In this document: in pieces, positions 1 through 56,182 of the stretch
Layout: the number at the start of each line of letters is the position of its first letter
How positions within the stretch are numbered: position 1 is the stretch's first letter
Origin: Effusibacillus dendaii
GTDB lineage: Bacteria; Bacillota; Bacilli; Tumebacillales; Effusibacillaceae
Direction of reading: 5' to 3'
DNA length: 64,000 nucleotides
NCBI RefSeq assembly: GCF_015097055.1
Contig: NZ_AP023366.1
Span: 1,550,001-1,614,000, forward strand
Notes under the pieces: generated by a model
Database searches by the model: none
The model's input: the letters and a program-made list of their open reading frames with translations, nothing else
Told to the model about the DNA's origin: nothing
Made by a program: the position numbers and the translations under genes

Positions 1-1124
<1,124 letters not shown>

Positions 1125-1448
1125 TGGATGATATACTCCGCGTTGCCAACAGGACGTTGGCGCTCTTAGCGGAGCCACCTCTGTGAATGGATCCCGTTCC
1201 GCAGGAATCGGGATTTCCTTAAGAATCCATCTGGCTCCCTACACGATTCAGTTTTCAAAGAACGACTGCCACCTTTGGTGGCTTAGCGTTGCTTGTGCCC
1301 CTCGGGTGCTTGTGCCCTTTGGGTACAAAGAACGACTCGTTGTGCTTCCCAAAAGCAGCGACAAACATGATCTTAACAGATTCAAACGCCCAAAACAAGT
1401 GGAAGTTTTTATCTTTTTTCGTGCCGCTCGCTCACGGCGACAAGGGAT
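1125..1448 (-). other. rRNA operon leader
   Basis: No coding frame is convincing here. Read on the minus strand, the region contains a CTTTGAAAACTGAA block near 1246-1262, which is common in Bacillota rRNA leaders. It also holds short GC-rich direct and inverted repeats around 1285-1330 (variants of TGCCC-N-GGGTGC). It lies between the promoter at 1449-1477 and the 16S gene, so it is read as transcribed leader. Confidence 0.7.
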
Positions 1449-3319: not shown

Positions 3320-3768
3320 TGGAGCGCTTGGCATTGTTTCTGGTCGGAATGCTGTGCGGGGCCACACTGATTGTTGCCGTGAAGGGTCATGACATGGATC
3401 TTCTTTATCTGCAAATGGGGAAACTGCGCGCGGAGAACAACCAACTGCAAGAAGAAGTCGATACTTTGAAAAAAAGTTTGTTAGACAAACAGAAACAGAG
3501 CAAAGTTCATAAAATTGAGGTCACCGTAACAGCACCCGATGAGTTTACCAAGCTGGCCATCACAAAGTATGCGAAAGATCATCTGCGTATTCTGTTAGAC
3601 AGGGACTTAAACAGTTTGAAAGCGAACCCCCAACTGGTCATCGGACTTGTAGACGGCCGTTTTTTTACCATTGAAAACCAGTCCTATCAACTAAAAGTCC
3701 AAATCCTCGTCATTGACGAAACCATCCATATGTGGATAGAGGGGATCAAGCAAGCGGCTCCTACTTAA
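3319..3768 (+). CDS. ytrI: Sporulation membrane protein YtrI
   Basis: A 149-residue bitopic protein. It has one N-terminal transmembrane helix (residues 4-23), then a coiled coil (LRAENNQLQEEVDTLKKSL, about 36-56) and a soluble C-terminal domain. This is the layout of YtrI, the partner of YtrH in mother-cell sporulation membranes. The ATG overlaps the ytrH stop codon. The gene ends tail to tail with the minus-strand gerPD-like gene, sharing the TTAA at 3765-3768. Confidence 0.82.
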   Translation: MERLALFLVGMLCGATLIVAVKGHDMDLLYLQMGKLRAENNQLQEEVDTLKKSLLDKQKQSKVHKIEVTVTAPDEFTKLAITKYAKDHLRILLDRDLNSLKANPQLVIGLVDGRFFTIENQSYQLKVQILVIDETIHMWIEGIKQAAPT

Positions 3769-3911
3769 TCCCCCTCCCGATCCGTATCTTCCCACTCTGC
3801 TTCGTCATCGTCCGCCAAGCCAGGCGAATGCTGCATGACTCCGATCGTCAATGAACTCTGGTTCGTAAGCGAACCGATATGCAGGGTTCCAATCTGGTAT
3901 GTCACATTCAC
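3765..3911 (-). CDS. Small GerPD-like spore protein
   Basis: A 48-residue protein starting at GTG (3911), ten bases after GGAGG. The N-terminal half (IGTLHIGSLTNQSSLTIG) has the hydrophobic-G-hydrophobic / SS-x-x-x-IG pattern shared by GerPB, GerPD and GerPE. The C-terminal half is very acidic. The GTG overlaps the gerPC stop, so it is coupled to gerPC in an hsp20-gerPC-gerPD order. In gerP-containing bacilli these proteins make the coat permeable to germinants. The assignment to GerPD rather than PB or PE rests on position and size. Confidence 0.65.
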   Translation of the reverse strand: MNVTYQIGTLHIGSLTNQSSLTIGVMQHSPGLADDDEAEWEDTDREGD

Positions 3912-4300
3912 AGATGCAATACCTCCAAATAACGCACACGCTGCTCAAACGATTGGAGCTGCGCCTCAATGTCGCGCCAGCGCTGTTCCAAATTTTGCAG
4001 ACTGTCTCTCACCTCCTGCATATTTTGCTCTACCTGCTGGAGGCGTTGCTTGATTGATTTACGGCCTTCCCCGCCACCTCCCGCTTGATCACCGCTTGTT
4101 TGTATGCGAGTATCCATTTCGTCTCCCATATGAACCCCCAAATCCAAAATCCCGTTTTGAATGCTTTCCACTGTCAGATTTTCAATATAATATTCGATCG
4201 AACCGGACTTGCCGGATTGCTGCAATTTTTTTAGTTCCTCTTCGATCGTTTCGAGCCTTTTTTGAAGACTTAGAATTTCTTCGTACCACGCCGGATAGAT
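3908..4300 (-). CDS. gerPC: Spore germination protein GerPC, ATC start
   Basis: About 130 residues: an N-terminal aromatic patch (YPAWYEEIL), a coiled coil (LQKRLETIEEELKKL), a GSIEYYIENLTVESIQNG core and a second coiled coil near the end. This is the GerPC layout; GerPC helps coat permeability to germinants. An in-frame TGA lies three codons before ATC at 4300, and no ATG, GTG or TTG exists before the conserved N-terminus. GGGGTG stands seven bases before the ATC, so initiation at ATC is proposed. The alternative is the TTG at 4225, which would remove the first coiled coil. The gene follows the hsp20 stop by 17 bases. Confidence 0.72.
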   Translation of the reverse strand: MYPAWYEEILSLQKRLETIEEELKKLQQSGKSGSIEYYIENLTVESIQNGILDLGVHMGDEMDTRIQTSGDQAGGGGEGRKSIKQRLQQVEQNMQEVRDSLQNLEQRWRDIEAQLQSFEQRVRYLEVLHL

Positions 4301-4317
4301 GGCCGTTCACCCCCCAT

Positions 4318-4863
4318 CTATTCGAAATCGATCGGAATCGTATTGTCTTTCAAATCGGCATTTTGATCTGTATCTTTGATCATGCGAACTTCCAATATAC
4401 CCTGTCGATAGGCGGCTCTTACTTTGTTCGGAAGTACACGAACGGGCAGCTGAATCTCCCGTTCAAACGAACTTTGCCGTTCCGACATCAAAAATTGGTC
4501 CCGTGCCACCCCGGGATATCGGTTGCCTTGGTTTCCTTTTATATGAAGGCGATTCGATTCCACAGCGATTTTGACATCGGAGCTTTTTTCTATACCGGGC
4601 GCCTCAATTACGGCCACCAATTCGTTTTTGGACTGGTACAGATCGACGCGCGGGTAGCCGGAAGACATCCCGTTAAACATGTTTTGCATCGGAAACCCTG
4701 CATTCGGCATCAGAGGGTTTCCGTCAAACAGGTTGCCAAGATTGGGCATGTTGCCGTTTTGCGAACCCATTACAGTTTTCAGGAAATCCTCGCCGAACAT
4801 TTTTTGGAACTGTTCTCCCAGTTGTCCCAATTGACGCAACGAATCCATCGGATTTGTATTCAT
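4318..4863 (-). CDS. Hsp20/alpha-crystallin family protein
   Basis: A 181-residue small heat-shock-like protein. A long N-terminal arm rich in Met, Gly, Asn and Leu (residues 1-70) precedes an alpha-crystallin domain (about 72-178) with RVDLYQSKNELVAVIEAPG and the terminal strand GILEVRM. Such proteins act as holdases, and several are spore-coat components (CotM-like). The start at 4863 is chosen for GGGAG eight bases upstream. It is the first gene of hsp20-gerPC-gerPD, which argues for a spore-coat rather than a heat-shock role. Confidence 0.85.
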   Translation of the reverse strand: MNTNPMDSLRQLGQLGEQFQKMFGEDFLKTVMGSQNGNMPNLGNLFDGNPLMPNAGFPMQNMFNGMSSGYPRVDLYQSKNELVAVIEAPGIEKSSDVKIAVESNRLHIKGNQGNRYPGVARDQFLMSERQSSFEREIQLPVRVLPNKVRAAYRQGILEVRMIKDTDQNADLKDNTIPIDFE

Positions 4864-4952
4864 AGGCATCACTCCCTGCATTACAGTATGCAGGCGAACA
4901 TCTTGTTGTGATAAATGAATACACTGCAGAAAAACCGAAAGGAGGCGCCTGC

Positions 4953-5770: not shown

Positions 5771-6004
5771 ATGGCATACGATGATCCGTTTTACACCCTG
5801 CTTCCCGCACCACCATTAGGAAAATTTGATCCCTGCTACCAAACCTGGAAAAACACCTGCCGTTTGGCCTGGGAACGGGCAATGGTATGTCGAATGTACG
5901 GAGACGATTCACCCTCCTGCCAGGCCGCACAAGAACGCTATTTTGAAGCTGCCCGTCGGTATTCCGCTTGTTTGGACGACACATGGGGCCAAAACGAATT
6001 CTAA
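5771..6004 (+). CDS. Hypothetical cysteine-containing small protein
   Basis: A 77-residue protein with four cysteines (DPCYQTWKNTC, MVCRM, PSCQAA plus one near the end) and an aromatic-rich N-terminus. The start at 5771 follows GAGGG; an earlier in-frame ATG at 5753 is possible. It is unrecognised. Its place between spore genes and its Cys/aromatic composition would suit a coat or crust protein, which is inference only. Its 3' end overlaps that of gerPB by four bases on the other strand. Confidence 0.6.
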   Translation: MAYDDPFYTLLPAPPLGKFDPCYQTWKNTCRLAWERAMVCRMYGDDSPSCQAAQERYFEAARRYSACLDDTWGQNEF

Positions 6005-6306
6005 AAAACAGGTCCCGATGCAGGTGGAGAGGTAAAAAAGTTTCCGTTTGGCGGCGTTTCTTCCGTTGCCATTCCTTCCGGAACCTGTACGATCACATCG
6101 GCTGGAGAAGGAGCGGTTGGAACAGGCCCCTCAACCGCAGGCAAAGTCGGCACAACTGGCGCAGGCAGCACGGGAGGCGCCTCCGTAATATCATACGATT
6201 CGGCATACATTCGAATCAGTCCGCTGCTTCCGATTTGTACAACAGATGCGGTCCCAACCGTATTAATTGTCAAATGACCGATATGAATGTTCTGAACGAT
6301 TTTCAT
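6001..6306 (-). CDS. gerPB: Spore germination protein GerPB
   Basis: A 101-residue protein. The N-terminal 35 residues (QNIHIGHLTINTVGTASVVQIGSSG) match the GerPB signature of paired I-x-I-x-x-L/V strands followed by S-x-V-x-Q-I-G-S. The remainder is a Pro/Ala/Val-rich tail of a kind seen in other GerPB proteins. It lies 12 bases downstream of gerPA, as in the canonical gerPA-gerPB order. Role: a coat protein that helps germinants cross the coat (established for the B. cereus and B. subtilis gerP operons). Confidence 0.82.
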   Translation of the reverse strand: MKIVQNIHIGHLTINTVGTASVVQIGSSGLIRMYAESYDITEAPPVLPAPVVPTLPAVEGPVPTAPSPADVIVQVPEGMATEETPPNGNFFTSPPASGPVF

Positions 6307-6318
6307 TTCATTCCCTCA

Positions 6319-6537
6319 CTACAAACCGGCCACATTGGCATCCACCAAATCCTGGTCGTTCGTGTTCGTGGAACTGACCACATTGTACGTGGACGGAAAA
6401 TCCCCCGTGTTAAACGAACCGGAACCGGCATACGTTTTAGACGCCGCTTTTGGCGCTATGATGAGAACATCTCCTACATGAACCACACCGCTGCTCCCCA
6501 CGCTGATCACTTTTAGGGCGCCAAGGATTGCTGGCAT
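6319..6537 (-). CDS. gerPA: Spore germination protein GerPA/GerPF family
   Basis: A 72-residue protein with the family signature: MPAILG start, GVVHVGD (residues 17-23), IAPK, then SKTYAGSGSFNTGD and a C-terminal STNTNDQDLVD. Length and motifs are those of GerPA/GerPF. It is named gerPA because gerPB follows directly. CAAGGAGG precedes the start. It is divergent from the gerPF-like gene at 6660 and shares a 122-base promoter region with it. Confidence 0.85.
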   Translation of the reverse strand: MPAILGALKVISVGSSGVVHVGDVLIIAPKAASKTYAGSGSFNTGDFPSTYNVVSSTNTNDQDLVDANVAGL

Positions 6538-6602
6538 TTAAATTCCTCCTTGGGGCTCAATCGTGTTTTTATTCTAGTGTACGTAACAGTCTCCGCTTTT
6601 GT

Positions 6603-6630
6603 ACCGATTGGCAAGCGATTTCATATGATA
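6603..6630 (+). promoter_or_regulatory. Candidate sigma-K promoter for gerPF-gerPE-gerPD
   Basis: ACC at 6603-6605 (-35 core AC) is followed by CATATGATA at 6622-6630, which fits the sigma-K -10 consensus CATAnnnTA at normal spacing. gerP operons in Bacillus are transcribed late in the mother cell under sigma-K, so the match is biologically sensible. The CATATG is palindromic and may also serve the divergent gerPA gene. Confidence 0.55.
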
Positions 6631-6659
6631 AACCAAAAAACGAAAGGCGGAATATATCC

Positions 6660-6881
6660 ATGCCAGCACTTCTAGGCGGAATTCGCATCATAACCGTTTC
6701 CACTGCGGGAGTATTTCAGGTAGGAGATACGGCTGTCATTGCCCCCAAAGAAACGGGGAAACTGTATACCGGTTCGGGTACCTTCTCAACCGGTGATGGA
6801 GCGAGCACATTCACATTGTTCAGCAACACCAACACAAACGACCCTGACTTTGTCGATACGGATGTTTGGGGAGTGAAATAA
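6660..6881 (+). CDS. gerPF: Spore germination protein GerPF/GerPA family
   Basis: A 73-residue paralogue of the gerPA gene across the divergent promoter: MPALLGG start, GVFQVGD, IAPKETGKLYTGSGTFSTGD, SNTNTNDPDFVD. It starts eight or so bases after AAAGGCGGAA. It is the first gene of a three-gene unit with gerPE and a gerPD-like gene that overlap or nearly touch. The exact PA/PF naming is by position. Confidence 0.84.
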   Translation: MPALLGGIRIITVSTAGVFQVGDTAVIAPKETGKLYTGSGTFSTGDGASTFTLFSNTNTNDPDFVDTDVWGVK

Positions 6882-6886
6882 AAAAG

Positions 6887-7201
6887 ATGCCGCTTTTAAG
6901 AGACCGTCCAAAGATTACTCAAGTGCAGGGAATGAAAGTGACGCTGATTTTGCTGTCAGGAGTACTGCAAGTGGGAGACACCCGACTCGTGGAACCGTTT
7001 TATCAATCTTTCACTGCCGGGGGATCGCGCGGTGCAGCCAGTTTTATCACGCGTGCCCGTCACATCCATTCCGCCACCCGACTTCACTATAACAACCAGA
7101 CGGATCATCAAATTTCGGATGATAATCTGCTGAACGATCAATGGTATGACCAGATTTTAAAAGAGATCGAAGAGGAGAGCAAAAATGGCCGTCCAGATTA
7201 A
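6887..7201 (+). CDS. gerPE: Spore germination protein GerPE
   Basis: A 104-residue protein with a GerPE-like core (VTLILLSGVLQVGDTRLVEP), then a basic and polar C-terminus containing His/Asn-rich stretches. It lies five bases after gerPF; its end overlaps the next gene by 17 bases. ATG 6887 is used; a TTG at 6866 overlapping gerPF is an alternative because the ATG has only a distant GGGGAG. Part of the coat-permeability GerP set. Confidence 0.75.
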   Translation: MPLLRDRPKITQVQGMKVTLILLSGVLQVGDTRLVEPFYQSFTAGGSRGAASFITRARHIHSATRLHYNNQTDHQISDDNLLNDQWYDQILKEIEEESKNGRPD

Positions 7202-7385
7202 CATGCAGGTACAAAACGGCGACATTCAAGTCGGTTATATCAAAATAAACGCGGTTTCCAACTCGGCGGTTGTCATATTAGGCGATGCCGAGACAATCAC
7301 CCCCACCGCCATTGCTACTTCTCGCGGCGTTATAGGGCCGCTTTTGGCTCCAGTCGTGGCTCCTGGCGGCGGCCCTGTCGGGTAA
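7185..7385 (+). CDS. GerPB/GerPD-like spore germination protein
   Basis: A 66-residue protein with IQVGYIKINAVSNSAVVILGDAE near the N-terminus, matching the GerPD/GerPB pattern (xIGxIxIxxxSxSSVxxIGD), then a Gly/Pro/Val tail (VAPGGGPVG). AGAGGAG precedes the ATG and lies within the end of gerPE, so translation is coupled. With the gene at 3765-3911 the window holds two GerPD-type proteins. Confidence 0.75.
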   Translation: MAVQINMQVQNGDIQVGYIKINAVSNSAVVILGDAETITPTAIATSRGVIGPLLAPVVAPGGGPVG

Positions 7386-7477
7386 ATAGGTTGTTCCACA
7401 AAAATAGACAGATGTCCGTTTCTTCTCCTCCACCCTGCGCATTTACTGAAGTGAACAATCACAAAGGAGGAATTTTC

Positions 7478-7603
7478 ATGGACGGATACGGGGTTTTCGG
7501 AGGCTATACCCGGTGGGCAGTCGTGTTCTTGATTATCTTTGTACTGTTTATTCTGCTGGTACCGACCACTACCACCGTTTGCACGACGCAACCGGTTTAC
7601 TGA
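7478..7603 (+). CDS. YjcZ-family sporulation peptide
   Basis: A 41-residue peptide: a Gly/Tyr N-terminus (YGVFGGY), one hydrophobic helix WAVVFLIIFVLFILLV, and a Thr-rich end with one Cys. This is the YjcZ/SpoVM-like small membrane peptide family of spore formers. AAAGGAGG stands eight bases before the ATG. A close paralogue lies at 8797-8925 on the other strand. Location downstream of gerP genes supports a spore role. Confidence 0.85.
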   Translation: MDGYGVFGGYTRWAVVFLIIFVLFILLVPTTTTVCTTQPVY

Positions 7604-7666
7604 GAGCAAAATTTCACATGCGCCAGAGATCCGTTGATGCGGGTCTCTATTTGTATAAAAAGCAAA

Positions 7667-7693
7667 CCCGGTTAATCAAAACCGGGCCTTTTT
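7667..7693. terminator. Bidirectional terminator
   Basis: CCCGGTT-AATCAA-AACCGGG (7667-7686) is followed by CCTTTTTC on the plus strand and by TTTGCTTTTTA on the minus strand. It separates the YjcZ gene from the convergent GerP-like gene. Confidence 0.8.
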
Positions 7694-7704
7694 CTCATAT
7701 GGGG

Positions 7705-7941
7705 TTACACTTGCAGACTGCTAAAATTATTGTTGTCAAAACTTAAAGTATCAATCGCATCCAAATCCATAATGAAATAGGTGATGACCGGCAGACATAC
7801 GATACTGTCCGCGTAAACAGTATTTCCATTGTTCAATTTAGATTTGTTGGTGTTTTGGACAATATTGACGCCCAGTGCGATGGACGCGCCTTGTGCCACA
7901 GTGTTGGATGTGAGGAACCCTAACCAAATTCCGACCGCCAT
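7705..7941 (-). CDS. Divergent GerP-like spore protein, family member A
   Basis: A 78-residue protein of a five-member family in this window. Shared features are a hydrophobic N-terminus, G-x-N-[IV]-x-x-N (here GVNIVQN), then S-K-x-N-x-G, and a C-terminal N/D-x-D-x-x-D... FD-x-N-x-F block. GerPA/GerPF proteins share the order GD...SK...G...TN-x-D-x-D-x-x-D, so distant relationship is inferred. Two GGAGG blocks precede the ATG. It is convergent with the gerPF unit. Function is unknown; spore coat is the best guess. Confidence 0.72.
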   Translation of the reverse strand: MAVGIWLGFLTSNTVAQGASIALGVNIVQNTNKSKLNNGNTVYADSIVCLPVITYFIMDLDAIDTLSFDNNNFSSLQV

Positions 7942-8043
7942 GGCGATCCTCCTTGTACCCTTTGATTACCCTTGTCCTCCTGTAAGGTTTGGTGTATGGA
8001 TATTCGTTAATTCGATAAGTCTGTATACACGTTTACATGATTG

Positions 8044-8280
8044 TTAAAACGGCCCCAGTAAGAAATTATCCATCTGAAACGCAGGCGTATCCACCCAGTC
8101 AGGGTCGAAATTTGCCTTGACAATGCCGGGCATCCATGCGATCTTGCCGTTTGTACAGAGGGTCCCTTCGTTTATCTTGCGAATCGAACTGTTCGTTACA
8201 AAATTAACCCCTGTAGCAACCGTGGCATCTTGCGAACAGCGGTTGACCATAATCCCGCCGATTCGAACCCTTACATCCAT
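8044..8280 (-). CDS. Divergent GerP-like spore protein, family member D
   Basis: A 78-residue member of the same family: GVNFVTNSS, then RKINEG, and the C-terminal ANFDPDWVDTPAFQMDNF. AAAGGGGAG stands seven bases before ATG 8280. It lies upstream of member A on the same strand and divergent to member E, so A, D and E form a cluster beside the gerP genes. It has two cysteines, unlike members B and C. Confidence 0.7.
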   Translation of the reverse strand: MDVRVRIGGIMVNRCSQDATVATGVNFVTNSSIRKINEGTLCTNGKIAWMPGIVKANFDPDWVDTPAFQMDNFLLGPF

Positions 8281-8426
8281 TCCAGATCTCCCCTTTCACC
8301 ATTCCCCATATTGTATACTTCAATCGGCGGTTCTGTGTCGGTGAACCGATTGACGGACTCCCACATAGAATGACATGAGCCTATATCGAAACGAACGGAT
8401 CACATTCATGGGGAGGAGGTTGTCGG

Positions 8427-8672
8427 ATGAACGTATCGATCACGATCAATATCGGAACGATCAAAGTGATCTCGATGACAACGGCAAGTACCATTGCGAT
8501 CGGCAAAAGCGGCGTCTCCAACCGCAACAACAGCAAATCAAACACTGGGCCGACAACAACAACAGACGGTAATGTATATATGCCAGTCGGAACGCAAGTC
8601 AATTATGATCCGGATCACATGGACACTCCCGAATGGGGAGGAGACAACATTGTTAACGCTTCGGCACTTTAG
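8427..8672 (+). CDS. Divergent GerP-like spore protein, family member E
   Basis: An 81-residue protein that bridges the two groups. Its N-terminus (INIGTIKVISMTTASTIAIGKSG) is GerP-like, while NNSKSNTG and NYDPDHMDTPEWGGDN match the divergent family. GGGGAGGAGG precedes the ATG at 8427. It is divergent from member D and convergent with the YjcZ gene at 8797, with a shared terminator between them. Confidence 0.74.
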   Translation: MNVSITINIGTIKVISMTTASTIAIGKSGVSNRNNSKSNTGPTTTTDGNVYMPVGTQVNYDPDHMDTPEWGGDNIVNASAL

Positions 8673-17076: not shown

Positions 17077-17232
17077 TTAACGCTTCTCAACAAACAGTAA
17101 GATGAATGTCGCCAGGGGACCTAATAATAAAGAAAGCAAAAACCAATTGAGTCCGGTTCTATTCTTAGACTGGGCTAAACCTGCGTTAATTAGGGCCAAT
17201 GTCCCCCACCCAACAAAATATTGCTGCTCCAT
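17077..17232 (-). CDS. Small two-helix membrane protein
   Basis: A 51-residue protein: helix 1 [16 protein letters not shown], a polar turn [10 protein letters not shown], helix 2 [18 protein letters not shown], and a basic end EKR. GGGAGG precedes ATG 17232. This layout is common among short, uncharacterised bacterial membrane proteins. It lies just outside the right end of the IS remnant; the degenerate tnpB frame reads into it but is out of frame. Confidence 0.72.
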
Positions 17233-17246
17233 TTCGATTCCTCCCT

Positions 17247-17740
17247 TTGACACTCCACACGGCTAAAGCTGGGATTCTTGGTAGCATTCCCATACCTGGG
17301 AGTTCCGCCTTGCGGCTCCAAGCGATCCCCGTGTGTCCCACGGTTGAGTCCGCATAGGCGGACGTGCTGGGAAGGTGCAAGCCTTCGCGCAGGATGTTTC
17401 TCGCGGCGTTGACATCCCGATTATGGGTGGCGCCAAATTGTGGGCATGTCCATTCGCAGACAGACAAGTCCTTGGTCTCACTATTGCGGTGCCCGCATTG
17501 GGAGCAAAGCTGGCTCGACGGGAATGTGGGCGAAACGATTACCGCCTGCCGCCCGTACCATGCGGCTTTGTACTCCAACTGCCGCCGGAATTCCGACCAA
17601 CTGGCGTCGGCGATGCTTTTCGCCAGTCGGTGATTTTGCTGCATGTTCTGCACTCGCAAATCTTCCAAGCTGATCACTTGGTTCTCGCGAATCAGCCGGG
17701 TGGATAGCTTGTGCAGAAAATTCTGGCGGCAATAGCGCAC
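17247..17740 (-). pseudogene. tnpB: TnpB C-terminal fragment
   Basis: The C-terminal part of an IS605 OrfB/TnpB RNA-guided nuclease. It has RuvC-II Glu in [12 protein letters not shown], the zinc ribbon CSQCG...CPQFG and RuvC-III Asp in [13 protein letters not shown]. The fourth zinc Cys is replaced by Phe (CPQFG instead of CPxCG). The N-terminal half, including RuvC-I, is missing. The open frame continues past the element end to 17186. Non-functional. Confidence 0.88.
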
Positions 17741-18062
17741 TCACAAAAAATGAACGTGTCCATAAGCTGGGGAAATGTCTTAGATGCGAGAATTCACTTC
17801 GCAGTCGTCTGGATGTGACCCCCTTGATCTTCGCCATGATGCCAGATGGAGAATCCGTGGGGAGACAATGGAGATACAAATGAACATGATCCGGCATGAC
17901 TTCCATTCCGAGAATCAGCCAGTCGTTTTGCGCACAAATCTCGCTCACCAGTTCCTTGAATCGCAATTCGACCTGGCGAACGAGAACTCTTCGTCGGTAT
18001 CTCGGACTGAATACAAAATGATAGTGGATGAGCGATACGGTTGTTTTTGAATGACGATATTC
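17741..18062 (-). pseudogene. tnpA: TnpA Y1 transposase N-terminal fragment
   Basis: About 105 codons of an IS200-type transposase: HYHFVFSPRYRRRVL, the HUH motif in MPDHVHLYLHC, and [15 protein letters not shown]. Homology ends there; the catalytic tyrosine helix is deleted and the frame runs into tnpB sequence. No start codon remains: TAG lies directly before GAATATCGTCAT at 18062. Confidence 0.85.
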
Positions 18063-18331: not shown

Positions 18332-18354
18332 TGTAGTCTACAACTTAATACAAG

Positions 18355-18512
18355 CAATCAGGTGCCTTTTCAGGCATAACAGGGAAATAGGTGAAATTCC
18401 TATACAGTCCCGCTACTGTGACCGAAGAGAGACTCCATAAAATACCACTTAGTTGAACTAGGGAAGGTTTGGAGAATCGATGACGCGGAAGTCAGGAGAC
18501 CTACCTGATTGA
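18355..18512 (+). promoter_or_regulatory. Cobalamin (B12) riboswitch
   Basis: The aptamer starts CAATCAGGTGCC and closes with CCTACCTGATTG, forming P1. Inside are AACAGGGAA, the TCCCGCTACTGTGACCG core and the B12 box GACGCGGAAGTCAGGAGACC. It is followed by a terminator at 18593 and then the Ni/Co permease. Adenosyl- or methylcobalamin binding would favour termination, lowering cobalt import when B12 is plentiful. Class and ligand follow from the box; direction of control is from family knowledge. Confidence 0.95.
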
Positions 18513-18592
18513 ATGAGCCAAAAACCTTCGAGGAAAGGTGGTGTATAATCCATAGTCATGGATGACTTCGTACATCTGGTATGGTGAATTTT

Positions 18593-18735: not shown

Positions 18736-18766
18736 GGGCGAATTTTCTTTATAAAGAGGTGTTACT

Positions 18767-38768: not shown

Positions 38769-39416
38769 TTACACCCTCCCTGCGGAAACTCTCCGTTCCA
38801 ACCAACGCACAACAAGAGTCAGGGAGTACGCAAGAACAAAGTAAATGACAAGAATAAGCCCCAATATCTCCGGCGTTCTGGCAATGTTTGCGGTTCGCAT
38901 CAGCATACCGGTAAACGTCAAATCGGATAATGTGATCAGCGAAACAAGCGATGTGCCTTTTAAAAGTTCAATCAACAGATTTCCGAAAGCGGGCAGCATC
39001 AGAGTAAACGCTTGCGGGAGGATCACGCTCCGCATCCGCTGAAACGAGGTCAGGTTCAACGCGATTGCAGCTTCCGTCTGCCCTTTTGGAATCGCCTGAA
39101 TCGAACTACGGACAATCTCCGAACCGTAAGCGCCATAGTTCAGTCCTAACGCCAGAACACCTGTTGTCATCGGCTCCAGTTCAATTCCCAATATTGGCAA
39201 AGCGAAAAACAGCCAAAACATTTGCACCAGCAATGAAGTACCCCGAAAAAATTCCACATATACGGCTGCAGCCATTCGCACCCATGCCCATTTTGACAAA
39301 CGACACAACCCAGCGGTGAATGAAAGGAGCAAAGCTGCAACCGCAGAACAGGCCATTACTTGCAGAGTCACTTCTACCCCGTGCAGAAGGGGTGTAAACA
39401 GGTCAGTCGGAAAAAT
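38769..39416 (-). CDS. ehuC: Ectoine/hydroxyectoine ABC permease EhuC, ATT start
   Basis: A HisM-type permease of 215 residues if started at ATT 39416. The N-terminus FPTDLFTPLLHGVEVTLQVM aligns with the EhuD N-terminus, and the EAA loop is GQTEAAIALNLTSFQRMRSVILPQA. The first standard start in frame is GTG 39371, which would cut off the periplasmic start of helix 1. ATT stands seven bases after GGGGTG and 18 bases after the ehuB stop, so initiation at ATT is preferred. CTG 39401 is a less likely alternative. Confidence 0.85.
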   Translation of the reverse strand: MFPTDLFTPLLHGVEVTLQVMACSAVAALLLSFTAGLCRLSKWAWVRMAAAVYVEFFRGTSLLVQMFWLFFALPILGIELEPMTTGVLALGLNYGAYGSEIVRSSIQAIPKGQTEAAIALNLTSFQRMRSVILPQAFTLMLPAFGNLLIELLKGTSLVSLITLSDLTFTGMLMRTANIARTPEILGLILVIYFVLAYSLTLVVRWLERRVSAGRV

Positions 39417-40544: not shown

Positions 40545-40670
40545 AATCTTGGATCTTCCCTGCGTTAGCTTACGAGGTTAGCTGTCGGGTAGGATGGCAG
40601 AGAAGTTTCTCACATCCCTCCTGGCATAGCCAGGATTAACCCCAGGAACTTGGTTCCCCCGCTTCCATAC
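40545..40670 (-). promoter_or_regulatory. c-di-AMP riboswitch (ydaO/yuaA class)
   Basis: Minus-strand sequence contains the class signature in order: GAAGCGGGGGAACCA, TGGGGTTAATCC, the variable hairpin with CCAGG/GGATG, CCTACCCGACAGCTAACCTC with GTAAGC, and GCAGGGAAG. Then follow the long terminator at 40388-40449 and ehuB. ydaO riboswitches bind c-di-AMP and turn genes off; they commonly control osmolyte and potassium transport. Here the regulated unit is ectoine uptake plus synthesis. Exact 5' and 3' limits are estimated. Confidence 0.88.
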
Positions 40671-40901
40671 AATGGAATTCAGCCTGTTTGTTTAATAATA
40701 AATACGTTGAATGAATAAACCATTCATTTATTTGTTGTACTTATGATAACACATTCGATTTTTTCCATTCACCCCGGAAATATTCTGATTATTTCAGCTG
40801 AGACTGTCTCTCCCCATATCAGCCGGAATTATCAGTTATATCCAGACTTTTCCTCCCAAATCCTGCCCTGTCTGCTCCTCAAATCCGGTCATTCGCGATT
40901 G
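40671..40901. other. Promoter region of the ehu-ect operon
   Basis: On the minus strand TATTAT (about 40697-40702) can serve as -10. An inverted repeat TGAATG-N7-CATTCA at about 40711-40729 resembles a FadR-type half-site pair but with a seven-base spacer. No gene is seen up to the GY-rich gene. Confidence 0.4.
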
Positions 40902-55569: not shown

Positions 55570-56157
55570 CTACTTTTTCATCGCATGCACCAGCAGGTCC
55601 ACAACCGGTTCAATCAATCCCTGCAAGTCGTACTTCGCTCCTGTCAGCACCCAGGCGGTGATCGTTTCATCCATGGTACCAAAAATCATTCTCCGCGCGA
55701 TCCGATGATCGATGGTCGGGCGGAAGATGCCTTTGTCGATCCCGTCTTGAATAATATGGTCAATCAGTTGGTAATAAGGACGGATGATGTCCCCAATCTG
55801 TCGCCTCATCGCCTGGTCCGCTTGCCGCAGATGAATCTGCGTGACCGCTGCCAAACTTTTGTTATGAGCAAGCCCTTCAAAGTAAACCGTTACCAAATGA
55901 TGCAGTTTGCGGATAGGGTCGGTTTCCGTTTGGAATCTGGCTTCGATTTCCGTCCGTATACGGCCAATCGCTTCACTTAATATGGATATCAGAACGTCTT
56001 CCTTATTCTTGAAGTACAGGTAAACCGTTCCGTCCGCTACACCCGCTTCCCGTGCAATTCGAGAAATTGGCGCATTGTGGTAACCAGCCTGCCCGATTAC
56101 ATTAATGGCCGCAGCAAGAATTGCCTCATACTTATCCGGGTCTTTTTTTTGAGCGAT
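55570..56157 (-). CDS. fadR: TetR-family fatty-acid regulator FadR, ATC start
   Basis: A TetR repressor of 195 residues. The helix-turn-helix is ISRIAREAGVADGTVYLYFKNKED, preceded by KYEAILAAAINVIGQAGYHN. The C-terminal ligand domain runs to HAMKK. Acyl-CoA would release it from DNA. Upstream of the conserved N-terminus an in-frame TGA is met (GGGTGACCC) and no ATG, GTG or TTG exists until codon 88. ATC 56157 lies seven bases after GGGGTG (ATT 56160 four bases), so non-standard initiation is proposed. A perfect TGAATGATCATTCA operator lies just upstream. Confidence 0.88.
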   Translation of the reverse strand: MAQKKDPDKYEAILAAAINVIGQAGYHNAPISRIAREAGVADGTVYLYFKNKEDVLISILSEAIGRIRTEIEARFQTETDPIRKLHHLVTVYFEGLAHNKSLAAVTQIHLRQADQAMRRQIGDIIRPYYQLIDHIIQDGIDKGIFRPTIDHRIARRMIFGTMDETITAWVLTGAKYDLQGLIEPVVDLLVHAMKK

Positions 56158-56182
56158 AATGGGTCACCCCCGGAACCAAAAA

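Follow-up and report, generated by a model that had tools for sequence, protein, structure and literature searches.

The gene of initiation factor IF3, infC, starts with AUU, AUC or AUA and is autoregulated by IF3, and it is the textbook example of an IF3-sensitive gene. Outside infC, conserved AUC starts have to our knowledge rarely been described. Rare starts are present in Staphylococcus aureus at ccpN (AUA), cvfC1 (AUU) and citZ (AUA), where they carry extended Shine-Dalgarno sequences (SDs). In poor medium, output from AUU and AUA amounted to about 10% of that from AUG, and in rich medium one of them reached up to 30% (PMC13009471). Where the start is weak, the SD tends to compensate for it (PMC5622118). 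Streptomyces sigR begins with GTC and is repressed by IF3 (PMC5472188), and for Listeria rnhC an ATC start has been confirmed experimentally (PMC13068326).

Here we describe gerPC, a probable spore-germination gene of the soil bacterium Effusibacillus skT53. Like infC it appears to have a near-cognate AUH start behind an extended SD with the GGRGGTGA-N6 spacing, but it is a different gene to which IF3 autoregulation does not apply, and it uses AUC where infC uses AUU. The rare start, the extended SD and the conservation among relatives are shared with ccpN and cvfC1, with the difference that the S. aureus starts were established with ribosome profiling and reporter assays (PMC13009471), whereas gerPC and the second gene described below, fadR, are read from the sequence alone. 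Also sigR has a conserved noncanonical start, behind the SD AGGAGGTG, and in sigR as in gerPC of one sister genome (G001) a canonical codon inside the SD makes a tempting wrong annotation; in contrast to gerPC the codon is GTC and not ATC, and the role of the rare start has been shown by mutants (PMC5472188). The fixed ATC start in a Bacilli gene is common to rnhC and gerPC, although rnhC is a different gene from a different family and its start was confirmed by experiment (PMC13068326). Conserved near-cognate starts behind extended SDs are of a kind already known; of interest here are how deep the conservation reaches, especially in fadR, and how the layout matches that of infC. Our literature search found no paper on gerPC, fadR or ehuC with an AUC- or ATC-type start, and the phrases used for such starts led mostly to mitochondrial genomes.

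The gerPC frame and its surroundings

The window, i.e. the whole stretch of 64,000 nucleotides that was analysed, comprises positions 1,550,001-1,614,000 of the one-contig skT53 genome with 3,454,394 bases (Table 1). Its minus strand reads GGGGGG-TGA-ACG-GCC-ATC-TAT-CCG-GCG-TGG from position 4315, and the stop-to-stop frame of gerPC covers 3908-4306. The initial annotation had described a GGGGTG-N7-ATC, a TGA three codons before the ATC and a frame free of ATG, GTG and TTG up to the TTG of codon 26, and all of this is literally present. The TGA within the extended SD doubles as the in-frame stop. Read from the ATC, the predicted N-terminus is (Met)-YPAWYEEILSLQK.

Table 1: Features of the window that are discussed in the text (positions are counted from the first base of the window).
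Feature	Positions	Strand	Basis
gerPC CDS read from ATC	3908..4300	-	130 codons and stop; open frame, orthologues in 4/4 genus genomes, Pfam GerPC match
gerPC ATC start codon	4298..4300	-	ATC in 4/4 genus genomes; ATG aligned in G004
gerPC extended Shine-Dalgarno GGGGGGTGA	4307..4315	-	pairing -18.0 kcal/mol; anti-SD present in the genome
Hsp20-family gene upstream of gerPC	4318..4881	-	PF00011 HSP20
small GerPB-like gene downstream of gerPC	3765..3911	-	weak GerPB match, E 0.036
ehuC read from ATT	38769..39416	-	start 39414-39416; SD AAAGGGGTG just upstream
fadR read from ATC	55570..56157	-	start 56155-56157; SD GGGGGTGA 56164-56171; ATC in 17/17 genomes

The name gerPC proposed in the same annotation is reasonable, but the profile behind it scores weakly, with 18.4 bits for the skT53 frame against the PF10737 cut-off of 22.4. 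Four orthologues were scanned as well and gave 20.2 (G001), 22.6 (G002) and 21.9 bits (G004) and no match (G003), G002 being the only one of them above the cut-off. Despite these scores we accept GerPC as the likely identity of the frame. Its neighbours are an Hsp20-family gene, whose stop codon TAG lies 17 nt before the ATC, and a GerPB-like gene with a GTG start that overlaps the gerPC stop. As read by eye, an Hsp20-like C-terminus precedes gerPC also in the three sister genomes and in the outgroup G004. Genes of the gerPA/GerPB type are located at 6,001-6,881, 2-4 kb from gerPC, and the region 6001-8672 is a dense cluster of small gerPA-, GerPB- and GerPE-like genes on both strands. For two small genes of this cluster (7705-7941 and 8044-8280), which look similar to each other, there was no Pfam match at E 0.01. 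Directly after the Hsp20 stop skT53 has an out-of-frame ATG that opens a frame of 15 codons across the gerPC start (4270-4317, minus strand), and the sister sequences do not have this ATG.

The gerPC start in related genomes

In order to compare the start position we used the four genomes of the genus (skT53, G001, G002 and G003), which are also the whole family set. All of them possess a gerPC orthologue with ATC at the start position and an SD upstream, the contexts being GGGGGGTGA-ACGGCC in skT53, GGGGGTGA-CGGCT in G001, GGGAGGGGATCGTT in G002 and GAGGAGGTGG-TCGGCC in G003. Between the upstream stop and the ATC there is no canonical start in skT53, G002 and G003, and G001 has only one canonical codon there, a GTG that belongs to the SD. 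The outgroup G004 from the sister family, the one such outgroup, reads GAGGAGGACTGCTTC-ATG-GTA-GAT-CCC-TGG, and its methionine aligns without gaps to the isoleucine encoded by the ATC (MVDPWNFELIAIKKRL versus IYPAWYEEILSLQKRL). From 14 genomes of the order eight gave a match; the G005 contig ends within gerPC, weak matches in G006 (two) and G011 gave no usable start, and the comparison rests on five informative genomes, four from the genus and one outgroup. A search of 151 genomes of the class at E 1e-6 returned the same five genomes only, and no relative was found when the genome contigs were scanned with the gerPC protein.

It is extremely unlikely that GerPC begins at the TTG of codon 26 with the frame upstream of it being incidental. 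This TTG is the first canonical start in the skT53 frame and is preceded by a weak SD (-6.3 kcal/mol), but the three sister species have CTT, CTG and CTG at the aligned codon, and W5, E8, I9 and other residues that are invariant in gerPC stand before it. Moreover, the match to the Pfam GerPC profile sets in some eight residues behind the ATC, i.e. before codon 26, and the nearest outgroup has an ATG exactly at the ATC position. The orthologues therefore argue against the TTG, and together with the strong SD they bear out the claim of the initial annotation that gerPC starts with ATC.

Outside the start, six isoleucine columns of gerPC and 16 of fadR are invariant in the four genomes. An identical codon is kept in one and two of them, respectively (3/22 together), and ATC is found in all four genomes at none of these columns in gerPC and at two in fadR. 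The start codon ATC is invariant across the four genomes in both genes. For codons 2-26 of gerPC we counted 68 non-synonymous versus 39 synonymous changed codons in pairwise comparisons, and the difference rates at the three codon positions are 0.46, 0.19 and 0.55 in gerPC and 0.10, 0.02 and 0.62 in fadR. The coding signal near the start is weaker in gerPC than in fadR because the N-terminus of gerPC evolves fast. As all four genomes show ATC, G004 shows ATG, TTG-26 is not conserved and internal isoleucine codons switch freely, the ATC is almost certainly the gerPC start codon and is fixed within the genus.

Initiation upstream of the ATC, or read-through or frameshifting from the Hsp20 gene, is very unlikely as well. 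It might be suggested by the in-frame GTG three codons before the ATC in G001 and by the Hsp20 TAG, which is in frame with gerPC in G001 and G002. However, this GTG sits inside the SD, the two codons before the ATC are not conserved (ACG GCC, ACG GCT, ATC GTT, TCG GCC), and skT53 has only two sense codons (ACG and GCC) between the TGA and the ATC and an Hsp20 stop that is out of frame. The chance of an assembly or sequencing error in skT53 is practically negligible, even if a run of six G lies just upstream of the start, as the same ATC in the assemblies of three further genus members excludes it. We also considered an indel in this run, but a longer or shorter run gives no in-frame ATG since the in-frame TGA lies between the run and the ATC.

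The anti-SD CTGGATCACCTCCTTTCT is found at seven places in the skT53 genome. Its pairing with the gerPC SD amounts to -18.0 kcal/mol in skT53, -14.3 in G001, -16.3 in G002 and -21.8 in G003, the SDs of G001 and G002 being outside the strict pattern. For comparison we picked 40 canonical genes of the window by eye and scored each at its start with the best SD, a choice that favours strong SDs and thus works against the following result. Only one of these genes has an SD as strong as that of gerPC, the other 39 having weaker ones (median of the 40 -11.95 kcal/mol), while 7/40 are as strong as the fadR SD (-14.3 kcal/mol) and 5/40 as strong as the ehuC SD (-15.0 kcal/mol). The strength of all three agrees with the extended SDs of published rare starts (PMC13009471). 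The predicted fold buries the gerPC start codon in three of the four genomes (unpaired probability 0.04-0.09), which would further lower initiation. A hairpin at the start that couples gerPC to the Hsp20 gene was considered too, as folds of 80 nt suggest that the Hsp20 stop region pairs with the start codon. We do not claim it because short folds have weak z-scores (-1.07, -1.95, -0.06 and -0.49) and the species do not share one pairing register.

The infC layout and the starts of fadR and ehuC

The infC start is ATT in all 14 genomes of the order and stands behind GGRGGTGA-N6. Exactly this layout, GGRGGTGA-N6-ATH, is common to gerPC in skT53 and to fadR in skT53, G001 and G002. Scanning the four genomes for GGRGGTG-N7-ATH gave 100 sites (23, 31, 26 and 20, against 12, 27, 11 and 9 in reversed controls), and with 23 sites in the 3.45 Mb of skT53 against 12 in its control the layout exceeds chance there, as had been proposed initially. 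From the 100 sites, all of which were read, 18 come with an ORF of 50 or more codons whose upstream stop is no more than 25 codons away, and 14 of the 18 are without a canonical start between the stop and the ATH. The recurring genes were infC (four times), fadR (twice, and once more with an ATG just before) and gerPC (twice) only. The second scan, for RGGTGA-N6-ATH in skT53, resulted in 141 sites against 61 in the reversed control. We read 101 of the 141 contexts, 16 of them with ORFs of 60 or more codons, and infC, fadR and gerPC were again the only convincing ATH starts; the other ORFs of this length appeared non-coding by eye or have a canonical start. Of these three genes, fadR and gerPC are located in the window. 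SDs that are weaker or built differently, as at ehuC, escape both patterns. We reject a genome-wide laxity in start codons, as the two scans recover only these three genes, and ATH starts are thus rare, selected exceptions.

The layout GGGGTG-N7-ATH had been noted initially also at fadR, where it indeed recurs. The window copy is a FadR equivalog of NCBIfam (257.9 bits, cut-off 200) that matches from residue 8, with a TetR_N domain at residues 13-57, and the first canonical codon downstream of the ATC is codon 88, beyond the DNA-binding domain. The ATC is present in all 17 scored genomes from Effusibacillus, Tumebacillus and Alicyclobacillus. These are 12/12 best matches of the order, where G005 and G006 (of 14) were left out as they have only distant TetR relatives, and five genomes from the named collection, namely three named Alicyclobacillus species, one Alicyclobacillus MAG and one Bacillota MAG. 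Three other invariant isoleucine columns of fadR have mixed codons over the 17 genomes. As the difference rates given above show, changes in codons 2-26 of fadR fall nearly all on third positions, so that the coding signal is clear from the ATC onwards. No canonical start stands between the stop and the ATC in 7/17 genomes. The other ten have an ATG or GTG ahead of the ATC, several within the SD or within a repeat ATGAATG...CATTCA that resembles an operator. At L029 and L036 the ATG directly precedes the ATC and could therefore be the start there. Among the 80 named fadR loci, L065, L068, L093 and L114 were dropped as they have no motif, L056 is a duplicate of G012, and five ATC cases were scored; among the remaining 70, those read by eye show an ATG, TTG or GTG within a few codons after the position of the ATC.

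The layout GGGGTG-N7-ATH recurs at ehuC too, as noted initially, with ATT. Read from this codon, the protein is an EhuC equivalog of NCBIfam (254.1 bits) with a match that begins at residue 5. The other three genomes of the genus have only relatives of 32-48% identity, and the two closest homologues (G126 and G034) carry ATG at the aligned start position. The class search passed 1e-40 in 19 of 151 genomes, and 17 of 20 loci were scored, as L237 and L239 are without a motif and L250 is a second copy. For 8/17 including skT53, an ATC or ATT at or adjoining this aligned position has the strongest SD among the listed candidates, for example -17.4 against -7.6 at the upstream GTG in G065, and G080 has GTA where others carry this GTG. 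The other 9/17 have a canonical codon at the aligned position or are undecided. An ATH start of ehuC is therefore suggestive and less secure than those of gerPC and fadR. The ATC or ATT with the best SD was observed at L235, L242, L243, L244, L245, L246 and L248 (near position 1501 of each locus), from several other families of Bacilli; at these loci a GTG or TTG that might tempt a gene caller sits inside the SD, and L246 has GTA instead. A c-di-AMP riboswitch (79.5 bits) at 40551-40694 on the minus strand immediately precedes the run of ectoine-uptake (ehu) genes to which this ehuC belongs.

Possible mechanism and role of the AUC start

Initiation of Effusibacillus gerPC at AUC, with anchoring by the extended SD, inefficient pairing of fMet-tRNA and an expected discrimination by IF3, is very probably the best explanation of the sequence data. 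The GGRGGTGA-like SD would anchor the 30S subunit with 8 or 9 bases from its GGAGG core to the start and could hold it long enough for some initiation at the AUC. The initiator tRNA reads AUC with a mismatch at the third position. fMet-tRNA would thus pair with the first two bases and mispair at the third, which should make initiation inefficient, and IF3 is expected to discriminate against it. The amino acid inserted would be methionine, and the output from AUC is presumably lower than from AUG. A modulation of gerPC initiation by IF3 is presumed by analogy to the layout of infC.

The AUC might serve to hold GerPC below the other GerP and coat proteins made in sporulation, and at fadR it would hold the repressor low relative to its target promoters. 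Possible, but on balance improbable, is that the AUC start is real and has no regulatory role, being an old change from ATG to ATC that was tolerated under the strong SD. This reading concerns the purpose and not the start, and its probability overlaps with that of AUC initiation. It would fit if GerPC were needed in small amounts only. In a published deletion study of the gerP genes, losing almost any one of them impaired germination to a similar degree, so that GerPC is needed, at whatever dose (PMC2817736). On the other side ATC, and not ATT, ATA or a reverted ATG, has been kept in 4/4 genus genomes and for fadR in 17/17, and switches to AUH starts are extremely rare, with one to AUU among 61,358 ancestral AUG starts in published counts (PMC5622118).

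Returning to a regulatory AUC, we consider it doubtful, though worth mentioning, that in Tumebacillales and Alicyclobacillus-like bacteria a tiny translational regulon responds to IF3 through the infC-like module, i.e. the extended SD GGRGGTGA followed after six bases by AUH, with infC, fadR, gerPC and a variant at ehuC as its members. If true, it would tie a spore-permeability protein and a repressor of beta-oxidation to the level of an initiation factor. Across the divergence of species and families, AUC appears to have been kept in one gene of sporulation and in that of a metabolic repressor, and ehuC suggests further AUH starts in Bacilli. Gene callers restricted to ATG, GTG and TTG miss conserved AUC starts. 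With gerPC, fadR and ehuC there is now a ready test of whether the IF3 level controls genes other than that of IF3 in spore formers.

Elsewhere in the window, a cobalamin riboswitch (121.5 bits) lies at 18343-18522 on the plus strand upstream of a transporter-like gene at 18755. At 17186-18062 (minus strand) an IS200-type transposase gene adjoins a TnpB-like frame (PF01797, PF07282) that appears truncated. The window edge cuts a 16S rRNA gene at 1-1185 (minus strand), and a match to the Bacillaceae-1 RNA (39.8 bits) is found beside it at 1119-1185.
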